Below, piece after piece: positions 21,530-35,345 of a DNA stretch of 64,000 bases. This DNA comes from Frankia alni ACN14a (lineage in GTDB: Bacteria > Actinomycetota > Actinomycetes > Frankiales > Frankiaceae), in NCBI RefSeq assembly GCF_000058485.1, contig NC_008278.1:6132962-6196961 (forward strand), written 5' to 3'. The notes beneath the pieces were generated by a model. The model saw nothing but the letters and a program-made list of their open reading frames with translations, was not told the origin of the DNA and did no database searches. Numbering within the stretch: the stretch's first letter is position 1; each line of letters starts with the position of its first letter. A program made the translations under genes and the position numbers.

Positions 21530-22002
21530 AGGCGCCCGCCGCCACCCGGCCGCGCCCGGCCCCGCCCGGCGGGCGGCCCCGCCCGGCGGGCTCACTGCCC
21601 GACAGCTCCCGGCCGGGGCCCGCGCGGCATACCCCTTCCGGGGCTCTCAACGCGCGTTCGGGGCCAGGGGGGTGCTGTGGGAGAAAAAAGACCCGGCCCT
21701 CGCGTCAACACGATTCTGGCGCCTTCTGAGGGCCTCGCGTCGCCCGGGCGCATCAGGCCGCGCCGCGGCAACCACGCAACACCTGGGGTACCTGCCGGCC
21801 GATACGCCTGCGCGGCTCACCCAGGCGGTGGTCCGCCGGCGCGATGCCGGCCGCGTCGAACCCCGGCTCCCTCCTTCACGCCCGGCACCCTCCGATCCGC
21901 CAGACGGTCCCTGAGACCCGTGGCGCGGCCGGCCAGCTCAGCAGAGCCGGGCGAAGCAGAGGGGCGAAGCGGAGCCAGCCGGGCCGGCGGGCGGGCGCAG
22001 GC
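21530..22002. other. Convergent intergenic region with GC-rich hairpins
   Basis: 473 bases between convergent genes, with no supported gene. At 21561-21590 two tandem copies of a self-complementary CCCGCCcGGCGGG element could act as a bidirectional terminator. A GAAAAAAG run lies near 21683. Confidence 0.45.
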
Positions 22003-22827
22003 TCAGACGGCCACGGACACCGGTCGCCGCGGCGGCGGGCCGGCGGCCAGACGGGCGGCGTAACGCCCGGCCGTGACGCTCACGTCGAGGGGAATGCCGA
22101 AGCAGTCGGACAACCGGGATGCGGTGAGCACCTCGGCCGCCCGACCCGCCGCCCGCACCTGGCCGCCGCGCACCAGCAGGGCGTGGGTGACGCCCACCGG
22201 GATCTCCTCGACGTGATGGCTCACGAGGACGCTGACGGGCGCCGACGGGTCGGCGGCGAAACGGGTCAGCCGGCGCAGCAGTGCCTCCCGGGCCCCGAGA
22301 TCAAGCCCGGAGGCGGGCTCGTCGAGCAGGAGCAGCTCCGGGTCACTCATGAGCGACCGGGCGATCAGCACGCGCTTGCGCTCGCCCTCGGAGAGCGTTC
22401 CGAAGCGCCGGTCCCGCAGCTCCCGGCAGCCGAACTGGGCCAGCAGGCCGGCAGCACGGGCGAGGTCGACGTCGTCGTACGGCTCGTCGCCGCGCCCGAG
22501 CACCGACCAGCCGGCGGTGACCACGGCATCGAGCACCCGCTCGTCCGGGGGCGGCGTCTCGACCAGCGCCGGGCTGACGACGCCGACCCGGTAGCGCAGC
22601 TCGAGAAGGTTCACCGTGCCCAGCCGATGACCGAACAGGTCGACCGCGCCCGAGGTCGGGAACAGCCGGCCCGAGGCCACCTGCAGGAGGGTCGTCTTTC
22701 CCGCGCCGTTGGGGCCGAGGACGACCCATCGTTGACCGGGAAGCACCTCCCAGGAAACATTTCGCAGAAGGTACGACCCATCCCGCACGACATTGACGTT
22801 GTCGAGCCGCAGCACCGCGTCCGGCAT
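22003..22827 (-). CDS. Stand-alone ABC transporter ATP-binding protein
   Basis: 274 aa ATPase subunit: Walker A GPNGAGKTT, signature LSEGERKRVLIA, Walker B LLLLDEPASGLD and H-loop VSHHVEE, all intact. The N-terminal LRLDNVNVVRDGSYLLRNVS is the usual A-loop region. No permease gene is adjacent, so partner and substrate are unknown; the sequence resembles actinobacterial single-domain ABC proteins of the ModF/YlmA type. ATG 22827 was chosen; a GTG 9 bases upstream is possible and neither has a strong ribosome site. Confidence 0.85.
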   Translation of the reverse strand: MPDAVLRLDNVNVVRDGSYLLRNVSWEVLPGQRWVVLGPNGAGKTTLLQVASGRLFPTSGAVDLFGHRLGTVNLLELRYRVGVVSPALVETPPPDERVLDAVVTAGWSVLGRGDEPYDDVDLARAAGLLAQFGCRELRDRRFGTLSEGERKRVLIARSLMSDPELLLLDEPASGLDLGAREALLRRLTRFAADPSAPVSVLVSHHVEEIPVGVTHALLVRGGQVRAAGRAAEVLTASRLSDCFGIPLDVSVTAGRYAARLAAGPPPRRPVSVAV

Positions 22828-22921
22828 GCCGCTCACGTTACGCGAGCGGTGCCCGCCCGGCGGAGTCGGGACGGCCCGACCCCACCACACTCGCCCCGTG
22901 CCGCCCGCGCGGGCGAGCCGA

Positions 22922-25900
22922 TCACGGCGCGCCCGGATCGGCGGGGACCGACTCCACCAGATCGACCTCCGCCCAGACCACCTTGCCGTCGGGGATCGGA
23001 CGGAAGCCGTGCCGCACGGCGAGCCGGGAAACCAGGTCGAGCCCGCGCCCGGCCTCGTCGTCCGGCGCTGCGTGCCGGCGCCGGGGCAGCCGGCCGCCAC
23101 CGTCGGCGACCTCGACGACGGCCCGGTCGCCGAGCCGCCGCAGCCGCACGGACAGCGGCGGGCGGCCGTGGCGCACGGCGTTGCTCGTCAGCTCGGACAG
23201 GACCAGGACGACGGTGTCGATGATCTCGACCGGCAGGTTGGCGTTCTCCAGCGCGAGCCGGCACTGTGCCCGCGCCGCCCGCAGCCCGGACGGCCCGTCG
23301 ACGGTGACGTCGAGCAGCGTGGGCCCGGCGGTCGGTTCGTCGGGCAGGCGGGCGAGCAGCAACGCCACGGCGTCGTCGGCGGGTGCCGGCTGGTTGTCGC
23401 GGCCGAGGCCCGCGCAGGCGGCGCTCGCCAGCGCGTCGAGGTTGTCGTCGGACGCGTCGCTGGTGCGGGCCAGGACGGCCGCGAGGTCCGAGACGCCGGC
23501 GTCGACGTCCCGGCCACCCCCGCGGACCAGGCCCTCGGTGAACAGGGCGATGAGGTAGCCCCGGCCCAGACGGACGGTGTACTCGGTGGCGTCGGTGTGC
23601 CCCGACGGATCCCGGAGGACGTCGCCGAGCGGGGAGCCGACCGCCATGTAGAGCCGCGAGACGAGGCCGTCCGGGGCGACCACGAGGGGCGGCGGATGGC
23701 CGGCGCTGGCCAGGGTCAGCACGCCCGTGTCGAGCTCGGCGATCGCGTAGATGCAGGTCGCGATCTCGTGTCCGGGCATGTCCGCGACGACGCCGTCGAG
23801 CAGCGCCAGCACCTCGCCGGGTGGCAGATCGAGCCGGGCGCAGGCCCGCGCGGCGGCGCGTAGCTGCCCCATCACGGCGCTCGTGCGCAACCCCCGGCCC
23901 CGGACGCCGCCGATCACCAGGGCAGCCCGGCCCGCCCCGAGGTCGATCACGTCGAACCACTCGCCGCCGGCGTCCCCCTCGGCCCCGGCGGGCAGGTAGC
24001 GCGAGGCCACCTGCAACCCCCGGGGCACCACCGGCGCCGCGCCGCGCAGGGTCTCGTGCAGCTCGTCGGCGCCGCTGCGCGCGCTGTGCTCGCGGTCGAT
24101 GCGCTCCAGGGCGACCCCGGCGCGGGCGGCGAGCTCGGTCAGGAAGGCCAGGTCGGCCTCGGTGAACGGGGCCCGGTCACCGACGGCGGTCAGGCTGAGC
24201 ACGGCCGCGACCCGGCCGGCCAGCACCACGGGTAGCACGGCCGTCGTGTGGGCACCGGCCTGCCGGATCCAGCGCGCGATGTCGGACGGCGGCTCCCAGC
24301 CGTCCGCGGCGTGGCTGACGATCTCCCCGACCCCCCGGGCCGCGACCTGGCTGACCGGGTTCGACGACGAGGCGAGCGCGGCGATCCAGGCGCCGGTCGA
24401 GGGCACGGCGCCGGTCGCGGCGGAACCGGCGAGGATCAGCGGCCGGAGCTGGGGAGTCGGCGGCGCCCCACCCGTCCGCCCGGCGCCGTCCGGCCCGGCC
24501 CCGGCGACCGGTTCAGTTCCAGCGACCGGTTCAGTTCCAGCGACCGGCGCAGATCCGGCGATCTGCCCGGACCCGCCGACCTGCCCGGATCCGCCGTCCC
24601 GCTCGGTTCCGGTGACCAGCGCGCCGTCGCCCGCCGCCGGGACCGCGGTGGGCGCGAGAGCCGGACGGGCCGCGACCAGGTGGACCGCGCACAGGTCCGC
24701 GATCTCCGCCACGATGAGCTCCGCGACGGCCCGCAGGGACGACTCCGGGTCCTCGGCCGCGGTCACGATCTCCGTGGCCCGGGTCAGCAGGCGCAGCCGC
24801 TGGTCGCTGCGCTGCCGGGCCGCACGCTCCTCCGCCGCCGCGGTGAGCGCCGCCTGAGCCCCCGCCGCCTCGGTCACGAGCCGCTCGTGCGCCCTGGCCC
24901 GTTCCAGCGCCCGTGCGCCGGCTGCGGCGATGCCAGCGAGGTAGGCCCGGTCGGCGGCGGTGAAGGTCCGCGGGGCCGGAAAGGCGAAGGTCACCACCCC
25001 GAAGGCCGAACCGTCGACGGCGACCAGCGGCAGCATGGCCCACGCCTGCTCACCCGCCGCCGCGGTGGCGTCGGCGAGACCGGACACCGGCCAGCGAGCG
25101 AGCAGCTCCTCCCGGTCGGCCAGGAACAGCGGTCGCGCTCCCCGCACCACCTCGGCCACCGGATGCACCGCTCCCAGCGCCACGTCCGGCCAGCGGCCGG
25201 GCCGCTGTGCCGGGTCCCCGCCGGGACGGGTGAATCGCAGCTCCTCGCGGCCGTCGTCGACCAGCGCGACCCCGCGCCCGGCCGCCCGCGCCGCCTGACC
25301 GCCGACGTCCAGGATCGCCGCGAGGACCTCGTCGACCGTGCTGGCCCGGGCCAGCGCGACGGAGTACAGCCCGCCGGACTCGGCCCGCTGCGCGGCCGCC
25401 TCGGCCTGTTCGACGGCCGCCTCGGCCCGCTGATCGGCATCGGCCCGCGCCGCCTCGGCGGCCCGCTCCCCGGTGAGGTCGCGGACGACGCCGAGCCACT
25501 CGGTCGGCCGGCCGTCCCGCGCCGGCCCGTTGCCGGCGGCGGCCTGGCCGCCGGCGGCATCCTCCGGGGGCCCGGACACGGGCAGCACTCGGGCGGTGAC
25601 GACGCGCTCGGCGACCCCCACGCCGCTCGGCGCGGAGATCCGGAACTCGGCCTCGAAGGTCTCGCCGCGTTCGACCGCCCCCCGCCACAGCCGCGCGACC
25701 CGGTCCCGGTCGTCCGGATGCACCCCGGCCAGCCAGCCGCCGCCGGCCAGGGCCCCCGGTTGCTGGCCGGTGGCGGAACGCCAGCCGGGCAGGTCGACGT
25801 CGAGCGCGCCGTCCGCCGTCGCGTGGAACACGTCCAGGCCGGCGGCGTCGGCGAGCCCGCGGTAGCGCGCCTGTGCCCGCAGCCGCTCCCGATCGGCGAT

Positions 25901-26941
25901 CTGCAGGCCGGTGACGTCCAACGCGACGAAGGACACCCCCACCGGACCAAGCTGCGGATCGCTCACCGGGAACCAGCTCGCCAGCCAGGTCAGCGGCGTC
26001 CCGGCCGGTCCCGCGACCCCCACCTCCAGATCCACCACGGGCTCGCCGGTACGCAGCACCCGGGCCAGCAGGGCGTCGAGTTCGGCATCGCTGTCACCGA
26101 GCACCTCGGACACGGTGCGGCCCAGATGGTCCCGGGCGGACCGGCGGTCCAACCGGGTGAGCGCGTCGTTGACACGTACGAACCGGCCGGCCCGGTCGAG
26201 CAGGGCGAGTCCGACGGGTGCCCGGACGAACAGGGCGTCCACCATCGCGTACGCCGCCACCGCGGGATCCACCCCGCCACCAGCACCAGCACCGCCACCA
26301 CCACTGCCACCACCGCCACCCCCGGTCGGCGCCGGTGCCGGTGGCCCGCCGCGGGCAACGCTCAGCGGCCCGCGCTCCGGGGGGGCGTCCTCGGGGACTC
26401 GCCGCGGGCCGGTCCCGTCGATGACGTCGCGCGGCGTCGCATCACCGGCCGGCGGCCGATCGACCCGCGGGACCAGTGGCCATCCCGCGGGCAGCACGGG
26501 CAGGTCCCGGCCGGCGCCGCGCTCGGGGTCCTGGCCGGGCACGCGGGTCGGCCCCGTCGAGGCCGGCCCGGTGGTGATCGGCCTCGTCGAGATCGGCCCG
26601 GTGCTGGTCGGCCCGGTGGTGATCGGCCCCGTCGAGATCGGCCCGGTGCTGGTCGGCCCGGTGGTGATCGGCCCCGTCGAGATCGGCCCGGTGCTGGTCG
26701 GCCCGGTGCTGATCGGCCTCGCGCCGTCCGGACCGCTGCCGGCGGGACCTGTCGCCCCCGATTCGGGCGGCCGCTGCGCACCCCGCTCCGGGCCGTACAT
26801 CGGCACCAGCTGCGCCTGCCCGGGTGTCCCCGCCCCGGGGGTGCTCATGGCCTCGATGGGCCCCCCGGAATCGGACTGCGGCACCCCGAAGGCGCCGGAT
26901 GCGGGCCAGACGGGCGGCTGCCCGGAGTACGGCGACGTCAT
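22922..26941 (-). CDS. Multisensor PAS-GAF SpoIIE-type phosphatase/ATPase regulator
   Basis: 1339 aa. Order: ~200-residue disordered N-terminus with pentapeptide repeats; PAS (about 230-345, LLDRAGRFVRVNDALTRLD); second PAS-like segment; two GAF-like regions; SpoIIE/PP2C domain (about 975-1190); C-terminal HATPase with SELTSNAVRHG, VADGGG and GRGLDLV (GHKL anti-sigma kinase type). Such proteins adjust partner-switching sigma pathways. The phosphatase metal sites are altered: GGEWFD for GGDWYD, GGVRGRG for GDVxGHG and FTEGL for YTDGL; the final DD remains. ATG 26941 overlaps the pat stop as ATGA, so it is coupled to the acuC-pat operon. No anti-anti-sigma gene is nearby. Confidence 0.9.
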   Translation of the reverse strand: MTSPYSGQPPVWPASGAFGVPQSDSGGPIEAMSTPGAGTPGQAQLVPMYGPERGAQRPPESGATGPAGSGPDGARPISTGPTSTGPISTGPITTGPTSTGPISTGPITTGPTSTGPISTRPITTGPASTGPTRVPGQDPERGAGRDLPVLPAGWPLVPRVDRPPAGDATPRDVIDGTGPRRVPEDAPPERGPLSVARGGPPAPAPTGGGGGGSGGGGAGAGGGVDPAVAAYAMVDALFVRAPVGLALLDRAGRFVRVNDALTRLDRRSARDHLGRTVSEVLGDSDAELDALLARVLRTGEPVVDLEVGVAGPAGTPLTWLASWFPVSDPQLGPVGVSFVALDVTGLQIADRERLRAQARYRGLADAAGLDVFHATADGALDVDLPGWRSATGQQPGALAGGGWLAGVHPDDRDRVARLWRGAVERGETFEAEFRISAPSGVGVAERVVTARVLPVSGPPEDAAGGQAAAGNGPARDGRPTEWLGVVRDLTGERAAEAARADADQRAEAAVEQAEAAAQRAESGGLYSVALARASTVDEVLAAILDVGGQAARAAGRGVALVDDGREELRFTRPGGDPAQRPGRWPDVALGAVHPVAEVVRGARPLFLADREELLARWPVSGLADATAAAGEQAWAMLPLVAVDGSAFGVVTFAFPAPRTFTAADRAYLAGIAAAGARALERARAHERLVTEAAGAQAALTAAAEERAARQRSDQRLRLLTRATEIVTAAEDPESSLRAVAELIVAEIADLCAVHLVAARPALAPTAVPAAGDGALVTGTERDGGSGQVGGSGQIAGSAPVAGTEPVAGTEPVAGAGPDGAGRTGGAPPTPQLRPLILAGSAATGAVPSTGAWIAALASSSNPVSQVAARGVGEIVSHAADGWEPPSDIARWIRQAGAHTTAVLPVVLAGRVAAVLSLTAVGDRAPFTEADLAFLTELAARAGVALERIDREHSARSGADELHETLRGAAPVVPRGLQVASRYLPAGAEGDAGGEWFDVIDLGAGRAALVIGGVRGRGLRTSAVMGQLRAAARACARLDLPPGEVLALLDGVVADMPGHEIATCIYAIAELDTGVLTLASAGHPPPLVVAPDGLVSRLYMAVGSPLGDVLRDPSGHTDATEYTVRLGRGYLIALFTEGLVRGGGRDVDAGVSDLAAVLARTSDASDDNLDALASAACAGLGRDNQPAPADDAVALLLARLPDEPTAGPTLLDVTVDGPSGLRAARAQCRLALENANLPVEIIDTVVLVLSELTSNAVRHGRPPLSVRLRRLGDRAVVEVADGGGRLPRRRHAAPDDEAGRGLDLVSRLAVRHGFRPIPDGKVVWAEVDLVESVPADPGAP
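26548..26720. repeat. 45-base coding tandem repeat (SpoIIE-type gene)
   Basis: Three consecutive 45-base units (starting 26571, 26616 and 26661, near identical) flanked by partial copies. Each contains three 15-base subunits. On the minus strand they encode ISTGP/ITTGP/TSTGP pentapeptides near residues 73-130 of the SpoIIE-type protein. Being a multiple of three, copy-number change would keep the frame. Confidence 0.9.
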
Positions 26942-29583
26942 GGGAGACGATTGTGGACGGTGTGACCATGTTGTGCCGAACCGCCCCGGACGGGGGATCG
27001 GTCGACTACAGGCAGCGCCGGGGTCCAGAAACGCCGCGGTCCGGCGTCCGCCCGGGGGACGGACGGGCCGGCCACGACCTCCGCCGACAGCACGGTGACC
27101 CGCCCGGTCGACACGATGACCGGGTCAAGAGTGAGATGAACCACCTCGGGGACGTCGTCGGCGAGCCGGCCGACGCGCAGCACGAGATCCTCCAGCGCCG
27201 CGATGTCGACGGGAGTCGAACCGAGGTAGCCCAGCAGCAGCGGCGCCGCCCGCACCGAACGGACCAGCCGGGCGGCGTCGACGTCGGTCAGCGGCAGGAT
27301 GTGGTGGGCCCGGTCGCCGAGCAGCTCCGTCGCCGGGCCCGACAGGCCGAAGGAGACCAGCGGGCCGTACTGCGGATGCTCCTCGGACCCGACGACCACC
27401 GACACCCCGACCGGCGCCATCCGCTGCACGACGATCGGCACCTCCGGCCCGAGCTGGGAGCGCAGCGACGTCCAGGCCGCGCTCACCGCCGCCGCGTCGG
27501 GCAGGTCGAGGCGCTGCCCGCGCAGGTCCGGCCGGTGCCGGTACGGGCGTGAACGGGCCTTGACGGCCACCGGGTACCCGAGCCGCTGCGCCGCCTCGAC
27601 GGCGCGCCGCGGCGAGGTCACGAGCTCCGCCGGCTCCACCGTGATGCCGTAGCAGTCCAGCAGCGCGGCGGAGCGTTCCTCGGGCAGCCGACCGGTCAGG
27701 CCGGCGATGAGCGCGCGGGCCTCGTCGGTCCGCACGGCCGTCGCCGGCTCGGTGCCGGTCGGGCGGGACCGCCACTGCGCGTAGCCGACGACGCGACGCA
27801 GTGCCGTCACCGCGGCCTCCGGGGACGCGTAGGCCGGGATGCCGGCGAGCTCGCTCGGCATGTCGACGCCCTGCACGGAGGCCAGGATCGGCACGGTGAT
27901 GCGCTCGGCCGCCTCGACGGCGCCGGCGGCGACCGGGCCCGACGACGAGGGCGGCAGCCGGGCCAGCGTCACGACGAGTGCGTCGGCCCGGTGCGCCGCG
28001 GCGAGCAGCGCGGCCGTGATCGCCGCCGAACCGCTGCCCGCGGGCAGCAGGACCTCCTCGGCGATCAGGCCGGCGGCGTCGGCGGCGTGCGCGGTGAGCC
28101 GGACCAGTGCCCGGGAGTCACCGATCACCGCGACCCGGTTTCCCGCGGGCAGCGGCTGCGAGGTGAGCAGCAGCGCGACGTCGAACGCCTGCGAGATGCG
28201 GTCCACGCCGATCACGCCGGCCTGCCGCAGCAGGGCGTCGTCGAGCGCGGAGCGGCCGGAGTAGACGGTCACGATCGGCTTGCGCCGGCCGAGACGGCGC
28301 GCCAGCCGGGCGAACTTGCGCGGGTTGCCGAACGTCTCCAGGTGCATGATCACCGCGTCGGTCTCCGGGTCCTCCTCCCAGTACTGGAGCAGGTCGTTGC
28401 CGCTGACGTCGGCCCGGTCCCCCGCCGAGACGAACACGGACAGCCCGACCCCCCGCGCGGCGGCCGCCGCCAGGATCGCCCCGCCGAACGGGCCGGACTG
28501 CGAGTAGCAGCCGACCCGCCCGGCCGGCGGCATCTTCGGCACCATCGACGCGTTCAGGCCGCCCGCCGGGTTCTGGATGCCCATGCTGGCCGGGCCCACG
28601 ACGCGCATGCCGTCGGCTCGCGCCTCGGCGGCCAGGGCGGCGTCGGCGGCGTCGTCGCGCTGGTCGGTGAGCACGACCAGGCCCCACACGCCGGCCCGCC
28701 CGCAGGCGGCCACGACCCCGGGCACCTCGGCCGGCGGCACGCACACGACGGCCAGGTCGATCGGGCGGGGCACCTGTTCGATGCCGCTGTAGGCGCGGAT
28801 CGAGGCGACCGCGGTGCCGGCCGCCGCGGCGGCCGGGTTCACCGGGTAGACCGGCCCGTCGAAGCCGCCGGTGAGCAGGTGGCGCAGCACCGAGTTGCCC
28901 ACCGAGCCCGCGGCCCGCCCGGCGCCGATGACGGCGATCGACCGGGGATGCAGCAGCCGGCCGATGGAGGCCGCCTCCGCGCGGTGCTCGCGGGCGCGCA
29001 TCACCGTCACCGACTTCTCGGTGGGGGTGATCTCGAACGACAGCCGGACGGCGCCGGAGTCCCAGGCCCGGGCGACGGTGTAACCGGCGTCGAGGAAGAC
29101 ACGGATCATCTGGCGGTTCTCGCCGAGCACGTCGGCGTCGAAGCGGCGGATCCCGCGGTCCCAGGCCGCGGCGGCGAGGTGCTCCAGCAGCACCGAGCCG
29201 AGACCCCGACCCTGCTGGGCGTCCTCCACGAGGAAGGCCACCTCCGCCTCGGTCGGCCGGGCCGCGGCCCCCTCCCAGTGCGCCACCGCGACGAGATCGT
29301 CCCCGATCATCGCGACGATGGCGCCGCGCAGCCGCTGGTCCACCACGGTCATCCGGTGGATGTCGGCGTCGCTCAGCGCCCGGCGGGCGGTGAAGAAGCG
29401 GAAGTAGATCGACTGGGGGGACAGCCGGGTCCAGAACGCCCGCAGCAACGGACCGTCGGTCGGCAGGATCGGCCGGATGTGGGCCGTGCCGCCGTCGGTG
29501 AGGATGACGTCGGCCTCCCACTCCGCCGGGTACGCCAGGGGCGTCCCGTCCCCGGCCGGGGAGGGCAGCGGCGCGGCGCTCAC
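26938..29583 (-). CDS. pat: Protein lysine acetyltransferase Pat (GNAT + NDP-forming acyl-CoA synthetase domains)
   Basis: 881 aa. The N-terminal GNAT domain (about 20-190) has the acetyl-CoA motif QGRGLGSVLL. It is followed by an NDP-forming acyl-CoA synthetase region: CoA-binding SIAVIGAGRAAGSVGNSVLR, succinyl-CoA synthetase-like domains (VGCYSQSGPFGGAI) and a C-terminal ATP-grasp part (GYPVAVKARS). Pat enzymes acetylate the catalytic lysine of AMP-forming acyl-CoA synthetases. GNAT-first order matches Streptomyces lividans PatA rather than Salmonella Pat. GTG 29583 overlaps the acuC stop as GTGA, and its own stop overlaps the next ATG. The GNAT domain could also act on other proteins. Confidence 0.9.
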   Translation of the reverse strand: MSAAPLPSPAGDGTPLAYPAEWEADVILTDGGTAHIRPILPTDGPLLRAFWTRLSPQSIYFRFFTARRALSDADIHRMTVVDQRLRGAIVAMIGDDLVAVAHWEGAAARPTEAEVAFLVEDAQQGRGLGSVLLEHLAAAAWDRGIRRFDADVLGENRQMIRVFLDAGYTVARAWDSGAVRLSFEITPTEKSVTVMRAREHRAEAASIGRLLHPRSIAVIGAGRAAGSVGNSVLRHLLTGGFDGPVYPVNPAAAAAGTAVASIRAYSGIEQVPRPIDLAVVCVPPAEVPGVVAACGRAGVWGLVVLTDQRDDAADAALAAEARADGMRVVGPASMGIQNPAGGLNASMVPKMPPAGRVGCYSQSGPFGGAILAAAAARGVGLSVFVSAGDRADVSGNDLLQYWEEDPETDAVIMHLETFGNPRKFARLARRLGRRKPIVTVYSGRSALDDALLRQAGVIGVDRISQAFDVALLLTSQPLPAGNRVAVIGDSRALVRLTAHAADAAGLIAEEVLLPAGSGSAAITAALLAAAHRADALVVTLARLPPSSSGPVAAGAVEAAERITVPILASVQGVDMPSELAGIPAYASPEAAVTALRRVVGYAQWRSRPTGTEPATAVRTDEARALIAGLTGRLPEERSAALLDCYGITVEPAELVTSPRRAVEAAQRLGYPVAVKARSRPYRHRPDLRGQRLDLPDAAAVSAAWTSLRSQLGPEVPIVVQRMAPVGVSVVVGSEEHPQYGPLVSFGLSGPATELLGDRAHHILPLTDVDAARLVRSVRAAPLLLGYLGSTPVDIAALEDLVLRVGRLADDVPEVVHLTLDPVIVSTGRVTVLSAEVVAGPSVPRADAGPRRFWTPALPVVDRSPVRGGSAQHGHTVHNRLP

Positions 29584-30848
29584 CGGTCCACGGTCGGGTC
29601 GAGACCGTGCAGGGGCAGCACCTCGCGCCGGGTGGCGGCGACCGCACGGTCCAGCGGGTCGTCGGGGTCGCCCTCGCCGGCGTCCCAGGGCCGGTACCGC
29701 ACGCTCACCCCGTCGCCGAGGGTCCGGGGCATCCCCGCGGTGGCCCCGACGGAGTCGTGGCCGGTGGCGGCCCGCACCCGCTGCGGGGCCTCGACGCGCC
29801 ACTGCGCCGGCAGCGCGGTACCCGGTTCGAGGGAGTGGTGGGCGGCGACGGCCAGCAACTGCGTCCACGCCCGCGGCACCACCGCGTCCAGCGCGTACCC
29901 GCCGCCGCCGCAGGCCAGCCAGCGGCCGTCGCACAGCTCGTGGGACAGCGCGTGCAACGCCTCGTAGGAGGCCCGCTGCCCGTCGACCGACAGCTCCAGA
30001 TCGGCCAGCGGATCGAGGGTGTGGGTGTCGCAGCCGTGCTGGGTCACCAGCACCTGCGGCCGGAACGACCGCAGCAGCACCGGCACGACGCCGGAGAAGG
30101 CCCGCAGCCAGCCGGCGTCGCCGGTGAACGCGGGCAGCGCGACGTTCACGGCGCTGCCCGCGGCGCCGGGCGCGCCGACCTCGTCGGGGAAGCCGGTGCC
30201 GGGGAACAGCGTCCGCCCGGTCTGGTGCAGCGAGATCGTGAGCACCCGCGGGTCGTCGTAGAACGCCGTCTGCACCCCGTCGCCGTGGTGCACGTCCACG
30301 TCGACATAGGCGATCCGGCTCACCCCGGCGGCGAGCAGCCAGGCGATCGCGATCGCGGGATCGTTGTAGATGCAGAAGCCGCTGGCCATCCCCGGCATCG
30401 CGTGGTGCAGACCGCCGGCGATCGACACGGCGTGGCGCGCCGGTCCTCCCCACACCGCCCGGGCGGCCTCGAGCGTCCCGCCGGTGATCAGGGCGGCGGC
30501 CTCGTGCATCCGCTGGAAGACGGGATTGTCGGCGGTGCCGAGGCCGAACAGGGCCGCCATCCGGGCCCGGGTGGGGTCGGGCGCGGCGCGGACCGCGTTG
30601 AGGTACAGCGGATCGTGGACGAGTTCGATCAGCTCGTCGGGGGCCAGGGTCGGGGTGGCGATCCGCAGCCCCGGGGCGTCGAGCACGCCCAGACTCTCGG
30701 CGAGGTCCATCGTCAGGCCCAGCCGGACGGGGTGCAGCGGATGCTGCGGCCCGAAGTCGTAGCCGGCCATGGCCGGATCCCACGCCAGGATGGTGGGTTC
30801 GACCGCCGACGGCAGGGTGCCGCCGGACCGCTGTGTTCCGCCCGGCAC
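29580..30848 (-). CDS. acuC: AcuC-like lysine deacetylase (histone deacetylase fold)
   Basis: 422 aa zinc-dependent deacylase. Catalytic features: GGLHHAMPGMASGFCIYND (His pair), YVDVDVHHGDGVQ (metal ligands), VTQHGCDTHTLDPL (metal Asp) and GGGGYAL. AcuC removes acetyl groups from acyl-CoA synthetases, reversing Pat. I chose GTG 30848 since GAGGGG precedes it by 5 bases; GTG 30854 lies too close to that site. First gene of the coupled acuC-pat-SpoIIE operon, divergent from acetoacetyl-CoA synthetase by 123 bases, which suggests shared control of acetyl-CoA/acetoacetate use. Confidence 0.92.
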   Translation of the reverse strand: MPGGTQRSGGTLPSAVEPTILAWDPAMAGYDFGPQHPLHPVRLGLTMDLAESLGVLDAPGLRIATPTLAPDELIELVHDPLYLNAVRAAPDPTRARMAALFGLGTADNPVFQRMHEAAALITGGTLEAARAVWGGPARHAVSIAGGLHHAMPGMASGFCIYNDPAIAIAWLLAAGVSRIAYVDVDVHHGDGVQTAFYDDPRVLTISLHQTGRTLFPGTGFPDEVGAPGAAGSAVNVALPAFTGDAGWLRAFSGVVPVLLRSFRPQVLVTQHGCDTHTLDPLADLELSVDGQRASYEALHALSHELCDGRWLACGGGGYALDAVVPRAWTQLLAVAAHHSLEPGTALPAQWRVEAPQRVRAATGHDSVGATAGMPRTLGDGVSVRYRPWDAGEGDPDDPLDRAVAATRREVLPLHGLDPTVDR

Positions 30849-30971
30849 CGTCACCCCTCGACGGTAGCCCGAACGGGTCCTGTGCCGGTAGCGGTGGTGA
30901 CGGTCCCGACCGGCCACCGGCGGATCGAGGTTCGCCGTAGATCCGCGCGAAATGCCCTAGGGTCAGTGCCC

Positions 30972-33077
30972 GTGGCAGCAGACGGACCCGTGGCAGCAGA
31001 CGGAACGGCACCGCAGCGTCCGGTGCCGGCGGGCGCGGAGCACTCCGCGGCCGCCTCCTCGACCGGGGTGCGTCCCGGCACGCCGCTGTGGGAACCCTCC
31101 GCGCGGCGGGTCGAGCAGGCGGCGGTGACGAACTACCGCGGCTGGCTCGCCGCCGAGCGCGGCATTACCCTCGGCGACGAGGCGGCCCTGTGGGAATGGT
31201 CGGTCACCGAGCTCGGCCCCTTCTGGGAGTCGATCTGGGACTTCTGCGCGGTCGAGGGCGAGCGCGGCGACGGCCCGGCCCTCACCGGGACCGGGATGCC
31301 GGGCGCCGTCTGGTTCCTCGGCGCCCGGGTCAACTACGCCGAGAACGCGCTCACCCGGCGGGGTGGCGCGCCGGCGGTGATCGCCGTGCGGGAGGACGGC
31401 GCGACCGCGGTGGTCTCCTGGGATGAGCTGCGTCGCCAGGTCGCCCGCGCCGCGGCCGGCCTGCGCGCCCTGGGCGTCACCGAGGGCGACCGGGTCTGCG
31501 GGGTGCTGCCGAACACCGTCTACGCGACGGTGGCGATGCTCGCGGCCGCCAGCATCGGCGCGGTGTGGTCGTCCTGCTCGCCCGAGCTCGGCGCCACCGC
31601 CCTCACCGCCCGCTTCGCCCAGATCGCCCCGAAGGTACTCGTCGGCGTCGACGGCTACACCTACCGCGGCCAGAGTCACGACACCGTCGCCGCACTCGCC
31701 GCGCTCGCCGCCGACCTGCCCGGACTCGCCGCGACGGTCATCGTGCCCTACCTGGCGCCGGACGCGTTCGCCCGGGCCCGCGACGCGGGGCTGCCGGGCC
31801 TGCTCACCTGGGACGAGCTGATGGCGGCGGAGAACGCCGAGCTGGAGTTCACCCGGGTCGCCTTCGACGCGCCGCTGTGGATCCTCTACTCCTCCGGCAC
31901 GACGGGACCGCCCAAGGCGATCGTGCACGGGCACGGCGGCATCCTGCTGGAGCACCTCAAGGCGCTGGCGCTGCACCTCGACCTCGGCCCCGACGACCGG
32001 TACTGCTGGTTCACCACGACCGGCTGGATGATGTGGAACTACCTCGTCTCCGGCCTGCTGGTCGGCGCGACGGTCGTGCTCTACGACGGCGCCGCCGGCC
32101 ACCCGGCGCTCGGCACCCTGTTCGGCCTGGCCGAGGCGCTCGAGGTGACCTGCCTCGGCACGTCCGCGGCCTACCTGCAGTCCTGCCGCGACGCGGGCCT
32201 CGTGCCCCGCGACCATGCCGATCTGTCCCTGTTGCGCACCATCGGGTCCACCGGGTCGCCGCTGTCCGCCGCCGCCTACGCCTGGGTGTACGAGGCGGTC
32301 AGCCCGCAGGTGATGCTGACGTCGGTCAGCGGCGGCACCGACGTCTGCACCGCGCTGGCGGCCGGCCTGCCGACCATGCCGGTGCGCGCCGGGGAGATCG
32401 GCTCGCGGGCGTTGGGCTGCGCCGTGGCGGCCTTCGACGCCGACGGCAAGGAGGTCGTCGACGAGGTCGGCGAGCTCGTCGTGACCGCGCCGATGCCCTC
32501 GATGCCGCTGTTCCTGTGGGGTGATCCGGACGGCAGCCGGCTGCATGACAGCTACTACGCGACCTACCCCGGGGTCTGGCGGCACGGCGATCGGGTGCGG
32601 ATCACGCCCGACGGCGCGGTCGTCGTCGAGGGACGGTCGGACGCCACCCTCAACCGCGGCGGGATCAGGATCGGCACCGGGGAGCTCTACAGCGTCGTCG
32701 AGGAGCTCGCCGAGGTCACCGACAGCCTCGCCGTGGACACCTCGGACGCCCCCGGCGGCGGGTTGCTGCTGTTCGTCGCCCTCGCCGAGCCGGGCCTCAC
32801 CGCGGAGCTCGCGCAGCGGATCCGGCAGACGCTGCGCACCGAGCTCAGCCCGCGGCACGTGCCGGACCGGATCCTCGAGATCGCCGCGGTGCCGCGGACG
32901 CACACCGGCAAGAAGCTGGAAGTCCCGGTCAAACGGCTGCTCACCGGCGCGGCGCTGGCGGACGTGGTGAGCCTCGACGCGGTCGCCAACCCGCAGGCCC
33001 TGCTGGCCATCGCGGCCGCCGCCGAACAGGCCCGAGCTGCCACCGGCGAACGGGCCCGAGCGGCCGCCGGCGACTAG
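30972..33077 (+). CDS. Acetoacetyl-CoA synthetase (AMP-forming)
   Basis: 701 aa ANL-superfamily ligase making acetoacetyl-CoA from acetoacetate, ATP and CoA. Visible features: RVNYAENAL, the P-loop LYSSGTTGPPKAIVHGH (about residues 304-320), GWMMWNYLVSGLLVGAT, SVSGGTDVCTA and the C-terminal PRTHTGKKLEVPVKR. The latter contains PX4GK around the catalytic lysine, the motif Pat enzymes acetylate. GTG 30972 sits 9 bases after AGGG; GTG 30966 is possible. The first residues VAADGPVAADG come from an 18-base direct repeat. A strong hairpin follows the gene. Confidence 0.92.
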   Translation: MAADGPVAADGTAPQRPVPAGAEHSAAASSTGVRPGTPLWEPSARRVEQAAVTNYRGWLAAERGITLGDEAALWEWSVTELGPFWESIWDFCAVEGERGDGPALTGTGMPGAVWFLGARVNYAENALTRRGGAPAVIAVREDGATAVVSWDELRRQVARAAAGLRALGVTEGDRVCGVLPNTVYATVAMLAAASIGAVWSSCSPELGATALTARFAQIAPKVLVGVDGYTYRGQSHDTVAALAALAADLPGLAATVIVPYLAPDAFARARDAGLPGLLTWDELMAAENAELEFTRVAFDAPLWILYSSGTTGPPKAIVHGHGGILLEHLKALALHLDLGPDDRYCWFTTTGWMMWNYLVSGLLVGATVVLYDGAAGHPALGTLFGLAEALEVTCLGTSAAYLQSCRDAGLVPRDHADLSLLRTIGSTGSPLSAAAYAWVYEAVSPQVMLTSVSGGTDVCTALAAGLPTMPVRAGEIGSRALGCAVAAFDADGKEVVDEVGELVVTAPMPSMPLFLWGDPDGSRLHDSYYATYPGVWRHGDRVRITPDGAVVVEGRSDATLNRGGIRIGTGELYSVVEELAEVTDSLAVDTSDAPGGGLLLFVALAEPGLTAELAQRIRQTLRTELSPRHVPDRILEIAAVPRTHTGKKLEVPVKRLLTGAALADVVSLDAVANPQALLAIAAAAEQARAATGERARAAAGD

Positions 33078-33122
33078 GCCTCGACCAGGCCTCGACCAGG
33101 CACGCGGCCACCACCGACAGCA

Positions 33123-33160
33123 AAGCCGGATCTTCGCTGGTCCCAGCGAAGATCCGGCTT
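33123..33160. terminator. Bidirectional terminator, 18-bp perfect stem
   Basis: Arms 33123-33140 and 33143-33160 are perfect complements around two central bases. The left arm begins AAGCCGG and the right ends CCGGCTT. It separates the convergent acetoacetyl-CoA synthetase and sigma-factor genes. Confidence 0.88.
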
Positions 33161-33269
33161 CCATGGAACACCCGGCCACGCCGTCACCGGCGTGCCGTGC
33201 CCCCCGCGGGGGCTGCCACCCGTGGCCCTGTGCGCGCCCGCCGTGCCGGCGGTCTTCGGCCGCGAGCGG

Positions 33270-34535
<1,266 letters not shown>

Positions 34536-35345
34536 CAGTGGCAAATCCGATGGTCGGTGCGGGTGGGACGTCTGTTTCCGTGCACGTGGGAGGTAACGAA
34601 CGAAGTCGCGGAACCATTCCCCGTGCAGGCGCACCCGGACATCAGCGATCGCCGGGCCTACCGGCAGTGTAGACCCATGCCCTCGAGACGCTGAACTCGC
34701 TGTCGCGAAGACTACCTGGCAGATCCCGTGGTGTGGCGCGTTCCGCGAACTATCTTGACCTTCTCGCGTGGCCAGACCCCCGTCGAGAGCCCAGATCCTG
34801 AACGTTGAGTACTCGACCACTCACCAGGTGTGAGGATTTTCGAGGGGCTGCCGTCCGCACCACATTTTCCGTCCAGTACCGCCATCGGGCGGCGTCGGTC
34901 ATCCGACAATCCCGACAGTGCCGCCGCGTCTCCCCGATGCCCCCCCGATGCCTCCCGAGACCCCCTCGAGAACCGGCTCGGCAGCGTGGCCCGGACTCGG
35001 ATCCGGCCGGATCGGCATATCCGTACCACCCACTCGGGCGGCACCCGGCGCCCGGCCTGTCTCACCCCGAGACCGCCACAGCGCCAGGAACCCCACAGCC
35101 CCGAGGCACCACAGCCCCGAGAGCACCACAGCCCCGAGAGCACCATGCCGGTGAGACCGGGACGCCCAGTGAGACCGCGACACCCGGTGAGACCGCGACG
35201 CCGCGACCGCCCGCGGTCCTGTCCTCGACCGCCGGTCGCCCGACGCATCCGGTCGGCCGCGGGGTGCCAACGAGGTTTTCGTTAGGCAGACCACACCAGG
35301 GGCACCCTCCCCTTGTGCACAGCGTGTGACGGCTACTCTCACACG
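34536..35345. other. Divergent sigA/glycosidase intergenic region
   Basis: 810 bases with no supported gene. It holds the sigA leader at the left and two tandem repeat arrays (35091-35203). Near 35250-35340 the sequence is less repetitive and should contain the glycosidase promoter, but no clear hexamers stand out. Confidence 0.5.
35091..35203. repeat. Two adjacent intergenic tandem repeat arrays
   Basis: About 35091-35146 holds three copies of a ~17-base unit containing accacagccccgagag. It is followed at 35150-35203 by three copies of an 18-base unit (ggtgagaccgcgacgccc type, starting 35150, 35168 and 35186). Confidence 0.8.

Follow-up and report, generated by a model that had tools for sequence, protein, structure and literature searches.

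We analyzed a 64,000-nucleotide stretch of the Frankia alni ACN14a chromosome (contig NC_008278.1, positions 6,132,962 to 6,196,961; below, "the window", in whose numbering all coordinates are given), in which a lysine deacetylase gene (acuC), a protein acetyltransferase gene (pat) and a gene for a PAS/GAF/SpoIIE/HATPase protein, here called the sensor, lie divergent from a gene for acetoacetyl-coenzyme A (CoA) synthetase (AacS). The home genome is a single contig of 7,497,934 bases. In the best reading of the locus, which we hold to be moderately probable, the sensor is a pseudophosphatase that acts as a sensor-kinase or as an adaptor, next to a Pat/AcuC/AacS module of the ordinary kind. The degenerate phosphatase domain is under purifying selection, and the linkage of the three genes is a trait of the family.

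The sensor matches Pfam PAS_4, PAS_3, GAF, SpoIIE (2.5e-31) and HATPase_c_2. Its PPM/SpoIIE fold is indicated by the Pfam match and by Foldseek hits of a weak structure model to SpoIIE, RsbX and RssB. SpoIIE of Bacillus subtilis binds its metals through Asp610, Asp628, Asp746 and Asp795, with Asp628 bridging both (PMC3517971, PMC5468089). The sensor gene and the parts of it that matter here are as follows.

22922–26941, minus strand: sensor gene, 1339 amino acids; low-complexity N terminus, PAS, PAS, GAF, GAF, degenerate SpoIIE/PPM, HATPase_c
23351–24004, minus strand: putative SpoIIE/PPM pseudophosphatase domain, about residues 980–1197 (Pfam SpoIIE at 1003–1197, plus alignment)
23960–23962, minus strand: codon 994, Glu for the Asp610-type metal ligand (GGD to GGE), by alignment; ligand role from PMC3517971
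23906–23908, minus strand: codon 1012, Gly for the bridging Asp628-type ligand (IGD to IGG), by alignment; PMC3517971, PMC5468089
23534–23536, minus strand: codon 1136, Glu for the Asp746-type ligand (TDG to TEG), by alignment
23369–23374, minus strand: codons 1190–1191, Asp-Ala for the usual Asp-Asp pair (Asp795 region), by alignment
22970–23284, minus strand: HATPase_c_2 (GHKL) domain, residues 1220–1324, with SELTSNAVRHG N box, DGGG and GRGL

The window sensor thus carries E994, G1012 and E1136 at three ligand positions and keeps one Asp of the Asp795 pair. Near its N terminus, a 45-bp tandem repeat (26564–26718; 3.4 copies, 98%) codes for STGPI/TTGPT repeats.

We compared the sensor with its orthologues in related genera, where g1 is Frankia (the window genome being G000) and g2 Parafrankia; g3 and g6 we take to be Protofrankia and Pseudofrankia. 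The Asp628 position is replaced in all 12 readable g1 sensors (Gly in six, Glu in five, Asn in one; the thirteenth, from G007, is cut off ahead of it) and is Asn or His in all eight g6 sensors. The Asp is kept in the 12 other orthologues (g2 6/6, g3 5/5, g5 1/1) and in 20/20 paralogues from g1 genomes, which were chosen from the better-scoring matches and not at random. At the Asp610 position the ligand is lost in 11 of the 12 g1 sensors (G010 keeps Asp) and kept in 8/8 from g6, although both glycines ahead of it are altered there; the Asp746 ligand is lost in 6/12 and 0/8, respectively. Among 47 columns that are invariant in the intact relatives and at least 90% conserved in the paralogues, column 1012 alone has been replaced throughout g1 and g6. 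In a tree of pat, acuC and hrdB, the intact g2 groups with g1 (support 1.0) and g6 falls outside (0.995), so two separate losses of the Asp628 ligand are the simplest account, and it was apparently lost independently in g1 and g6; support for the g1 node is 0.696, and the g3 rows L099 and L100, which have neither pat nor acuC, rest on hrdB alone. Given these replacements, the phosphatase of the Frankia sensor is probably dead. We therefore rejected an active phosphatase in Frankia, and the partner-switching role given to the protein in the first-pass annotation is not supported.

The PPM domain has nevertheless been maintained. Its ratio of nonsynonymous to synonymous substitution rates (dN/dS; a simple Nei-Gojobori count, with dS large in the widest pairs) is 0.10–0.34 over 12 g1 pairs, similar to that of the ATPase domain in g1 (0.09–0.37). 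Two g6 pairs gave 0.21 and 0.25, three pairs of intact g2 sensors 0.09–0.20, and g3 sensors 0.06–0.10. Values for the GAF2 segment are high (0.43–1.09) because it contains low-complexity, poorly alignable stretches. Dead and live sensors carry a near-identical SAGHPPPLV loop. The N, G1 and G2 boxes of the GHKL domain are all present in the window sensor (SELTSNAVRHG, VADGGG, GRGL), and the N box is intact in 13/13 g1 and 8/8 g6 sensors.

A further line of evidence comes from genomes that keep the sensor after losing its neighbors. We matched acuC in 11 of the 14 genomes tested; three g3 genomes (G023, G043 and G044, 81–88% complete) gave no match, and their best pat matches were partial and distant (4.8e-20, 3.1e-21 and 2.1e-45). 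In G043 (L100) and G044 (L099) aacS is followed by a brief interval holding remnants of acuC, after which come the sensor and ABC genes; the G023 contig starts inside the sensor gene and does not reach the acuC-pat site. The phosphatase motifs of the three sensors are intact where readable (one stretch is masked in G043), and their pairwise dN/dS is 0.06–0.07. Such conserved, motif-intact sensors indicate that the ancestral sensor serves some function even where AcuC and Pat are missing. An obligate dependence of the sensor on AcuC or Pat was accordingly rejected, and the joint tuning of acetylation and sigma control suggested in the first-pass annotation sits poorly with the same three genomes. 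In another genome, G020, the pat match breaks off at residue 683 and the sensor gene is in pieces, through decay or sequencing error.

The remaining features of the locus are these.

26938–29583, minus strand: pat, 881 amino acids; N-terminal GNAT fused to a degenerate NDP (nucleoside diphosphate)-forming acyl-CoA synthetase-like region
29580–30917, minus strand: acuC, class I HDAC-like lysine deacetylase; start codon uncertain, homology beginning near residue 40
30972–33077, plus strand: aacS, divergent from acuC; GTG start assumed
29580–29583, minus strand: GTGA, overlap of the acuC stop and the pat GTG, read directly
26938–26941, minus strand: ATGA, overlap of the pat stop and the sensor ATG, read directly
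32910–32912, plus strand: presumed acetylation-target lysine codon in PX4GK, K624 of P0004
22003–22827, minus strand: ABC ATPase gene, 94 bp downstream of the sensor gene and syntenic in relatives

Both overlaps are exactly where the earlier annotation had placed them, and the gene identities that it proposed (deacetylase, GNAT-first Pat, PAS/GAF/SpoIIE/HATPase protein, synthetase) were borne out by Pfam and NCBIfam. A consensus scan of 21700–33400 found no promoter and no terminator, few being expected there; co-transcription of acuC, pat and the sensor is hence only inferred, and the ABC ATPase gene is a possible fourth member of the unit. At the presumed start of aacS an exact 18-bp duplication (30969–31004) supplies a second GTG candidate.

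Synteny within the family was assessed in 35 genomes, with pat regions fetched from relatives. The order gh - hrdB - aacS / acuC - pat - sensor - ABC is conserved, and pat and the sensor are neighbors in 25 of the genomes, from five genera (g1 10/13, g2 6/6, g3 2/5, g5 1/1, g6 6/8); contig ends obscure the linkage in five (G002, G007, G009, G049 and G050). Two genomes have pat and no orthologous sensor: G015 (g4, 63% complete) and G018 (g7), a 3-Mb genome with several near-equal pat copies 52–55% identical to that of the window. The 4-base pat/sensor overlap is available at every linked locus of g1 (10/10) and g2 (6/6); the start is seen as ATG in 13 of these 16, and two g2 loci offer a further start upstream. 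None of the eight readable linked loci of g3, g5 and g6 has it, the ninth (L056) being broken. The acuC/pat overlap is available in 9/13 g1 loci, absent from L043, L044 and L047, and not judged in L049.

Outside the family the picture changes. We surveyed the best 80 of 531 candidate actinobacterial pat loci, probing for the sensor with its C-terminal part only. Although acuC adjoins pat in 57 of these 80, a strong divergent aacS was found in six Frankiaceae-looking loci (L136–L141), and a SpoIIE-type match in the flanks of only three: L137 (Frankia sp. QA3), L139 (Parafrankia sp. EUN1f) and L167 (Blastococcus), the last being a different, distant gene. Loci L136, L138, L140 and L141 could not show the sensor, since their contigs end within about 1.5 kb of pat and the probe was C-terminal. 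We conclude that the acuC-pat-sensor linkage is a family trait; a general actinobacterial operon was rejected on the three flank matches among these 80 loci. The linkage of the SpoIIE gene to pat in relatives, whose absence the annotation had named as refuting its proposal, thus holds inside the family and fails beyond it.

The acetylation module itself looks ordinary. AcuC matches Pfam Hist_deacetyl (2.2e-80), and its motifs LHHAM, D.D.HHGDG, HGCDTH and GGGGY occur in the window protein and in almost every one of 31 aligned sequences; their HH, DxH, D and Y are presumably the catalytic residues, as in HDACs. In Pat, Pfam places GNAT at residues 81–168, followed by CoA_binding_2, Succ_CoA_lig and ATP-grasp_5. 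This is the layout of Streptomyces lividans PatA, an N-terminal GNAT joined to an NDP-forming acyl-CoA synthetase-like region, and the nearest PDB match of the Pat GNAT domain is PatA itself (4nxy, 160 bits), with other Pats close beside. The AE of the Pat AE[VI]AF motif is kept in 31/31 aligned Pats, four outgroups included, and we take its Glu to be the GNAT catalytic residue. A second GNAT-Pat-like protein, 41% identical, is encoded elsewhere in the genome (G000:C1:5307757-5310372).

Window AacS is full length, exceeds two NCBIfam acetoacetate--CoA ligase cut-offs (903.1 versus 639 and 782.6 versus 520.9 bits) and has the P-loop, the hinge and the C-terminal lysine. The PX4GK motif that the annotation reports for it, PRTHTGKK, was confirmed, target lysine included, at residues 618–625 of P0004. 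That lysine is kept in 13/13 g1 loci (the full GK in 11) and in the g6 (three) and g3 (four) loci read. S. lividans PatA acetylates AacS, as the earlier annotation states, at K617 (PMC8007912, PMC4053389), and AacS is likely a Pat/AcuC substrate here. The companion claim, that AcuC reverses this mark, fared less well: the reversal described in the same papers is by a sirtuin-type enzyme, and the AcuC role had been carried over from Bacillus AcsA. AcuC would be the eraser of AacS acetylation in Frankia by that analogy.

In g2 the synthetase is degenerate:

loci L050, L052, L058, L097, L103 and L139 (genus g2): degenerate lid-less aacS, divergent from acuC

In all six genomes it ends near residue 545 of 678, without the lid that bears the target lysine, and lacks the SSGTTG P-loop, the RHGD motif and the hinge. 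Yet of the 210 alignment columns that do not vary among 16 live enzymes, all six proteins retain 147, with dN/dS at 0.21–0.36; judged from these alignments the protein is possibly a pseudo-synthetase. A second close AacS was not found in g2 genomes at E 1e-60. With its motifs and lysine gone, the proposed Pat target is absent from g2, a sister genus that keeps acuC, pat and a live phosphatase. The g5 aacS (L055, G016) retains the lid, with motifs degenerate, the lysine site among them.

We propose the following arrangement. In an ordinary actinobacterial lysine-acetylation module, Pat would write, AcuC would erase and the divergent AacS would be the likely substrate; a family-specific third gene, the sensor, would be translated directly after pat. 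The sensor probably descends from a bifunctional PAS/GAF protein, similar to Rv1364c, that combined an RsbU-type phosphatase with an RsbW-type kinase and whose phosphatase would have been inactivated in Frankia, with the ATPase and the partner-facing loop retained. PAS/GAF input would pass through helical linkers to the PPM pseudophosphatase, which may still dock a client and position the GHKL ATPase; PPM domains of the SpoIIE family are driven via helical linkers and dimerization (PMC12143880). The working output would then be the GHKL ATPase, as a signal-gated kinase or adaptor. Of a partner switch, just the half that phosphorylates or sequesters would be left, with dephosphorylation falling to the other SpoIIE-type phosphatases of the cell, and the client would probably be a STAS protein encoded elsewhere and acting in trans. 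Regulation of the neighboring hrdB-like sigma factor was considered as well; synteny is the sole pointer to it. This hrdB/RpoD-like gene, of the principal type, adjoins aacS (33270–34820), and a related sigma gene lies near acuC-pat in many other actinobacteria too.

Several alternatives have to be weighed against a pseudophosphatase acting as kinase or adaptor. There is almost an even chance that the sensor is a mere neighbor, sharing the acuC-pat transcript and serving a separate pathway, with the overlap just securing expression. Its persistence after acuC-pat loss fits this, as does the absence of the overlap in g3, g5 and g6, and 4-base gene overlaps are common in GC-rich actinobacteria; linkage across five genera does not, nor does the fact that the phosphatase is lost only in genera whose AacS, AcuC and Pat are all intact, among the genomes read. 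A closer tie, in which the sensor would bind AcuC or Pat and adjust AacS acetylation to signals and to the ATP state, in the manner of Bacillus AcuB, we consider rather doubtful. It merits weighing because of the Bacillus likeness, where acsA lies divergent from acuABC and AcuB is the third protein (PMC13121692, PMC13039410); the pat/sensor overlap at all 16 linked g1 and g2 loci and the precedent of RssB, a phosphatase turned adaptor (PMC12143880), also favor it. However, the natural deletions weigh against an obligatory control of this kind, g2 retains the sensor, acuC and pat despite its degenerate AacS, and Pfam finds no CBS or ACT domain in the sensor. By analogy, the sensor may have some influence on acetylation. 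The boldest version, which we hold to be unlikely, would make phosphatase silencing an adaptive step, taken twice (in Frankia and in a second genus), that turned the PPM domain into a nucleotide-gated docking module with AcuC or Pat as its direct target, comparable to AcuB but of unrelated origin, in a co-evolving acetylation switch. The phosphatase is indeed lost where AacS, AcuC and Pat are intact and alive where the circuit is broken (the synthetase is degenerate in g2 and g5, and acuC-pat is lost in three of five g3 genomes), with G014 (g3) as the exception.

Simple decay of the SpoIIE domain in Frankia and the Pseudofrankia-like genomes would explain why the replacements differ among sub-lineages (G, E, N, H) and why dN/dS is slightly raised, but dN/dS remains low, the frames are open and column 1012 is the only one of the 47 lost throughout both clades, so that we find decay quite improbable. 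The original proposal, in which an active partner-switching phosphatase/kinase would set sigma control and AacS acetylation jointly, agrees with the domain order, the tight coupling and the intact phosphatase motifs of g2 and g3; but the metal ligands are gone from the window sensor, as from every readable Frankia sensor, and no sigma partner was found, so that it appears highly unlikely. The pseudophosphatase reading that we prefer has its own difficulties. Glu or Asn at ligand positions might still hold metal, g6 keeps the Asp610- and Asp746-type ligands, G010 keeps several, and G014 has all parts of the circuit plus a live phosphatase. The ATPase is not universally kept, as g3 sensors lack the glycines after the G1-box Asp, and the g5 sensor (L055, G016) shows the reverse loss, with the N box gone and the phosphatase motifs intact. 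Some relaxation is possible, since dN/dS is slightly higher in the dead lineages than in intact g2 and g3. The AlphaFold2 model is weak (382 residues, a 4-sequence alignment, mean predicted local distance difference test score 56.3, predicted template modeling score 0.53). PF01740 (STAS) has no match in the window and nine elsewhere in the genome, which singles out no client.

If the inactivity is borne out, the Frankia sensor would be a bacterial PPM pseudophosphatase that owes its state to point substitutions and that apparently arose twice in one family. Searches of open-licence papers, which did not extend to subscription journals, turned up no report of such a protein. The live orthologues of the sister genera are ready controls, so that the step from phosphatase to adaptor or kinase-only protein can be tested with close natural pairs, and the natural knock-outs (acuC-pat missing, synthetase degenerate) let the interplay of Pat/AcuC and sensor be probed in nitrogen-fixing plant symbionts.

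Among known systems, the closest solved structure by sequence and fold is that of the RsbU-RsbW domains of Mycobacterium tuberculosis Rv1364c (3ke6), also the best Foldseek match of the model, ahead of SpoIIE and RssB. Rv1364c, a PAS-RsbU-RsbW-RsbV fusion, likewise joins a PPM phosphatase to a GHKL kinase behind a PAS sensor, but it keeps GGD, GDV and TDG and carries its own anti-anti-sigma domain; the Frankia sensor has two PAS and two GAF domains, no Pfam STAS match and replaced ligands. Escherichia coli RssB is also a signaling adaptor evolved from a PPM-fold pseudophosphatase (PMC12143880), although it is inactive through C-terminal truncation, takes its input from a receiver domain and has no GHKL domain, whereas the Frankia domain is full length and probably inactive through point changes. 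The eukaryotic PPM pseudophosphatases PHLPP2 and TAB1 have similarly lost ligands and kept the fold, in unrelated architectures (PMC12002173). S. lividans offers the same GNAT-first Pat and an AacS acetylated by it, with a sirtuin-type deacetylase instead (PMC8007912). Bacillus acuABC resembles the Frankia locus in having a third gene, for a nucleotide-linked sensor, beside an acetyltransferase and AcuC and divergent from an AMP (adenosine monophosphate)-forming CoA ligase. AcuB senses adenine nucleotides or diadenosine tetraphosphate (Ap4A), and binds and inhibits AcuC (PMC13121692, PMC13039410); it is, however, a CBS-ACT protein, not homologous to the Frankia sensor.

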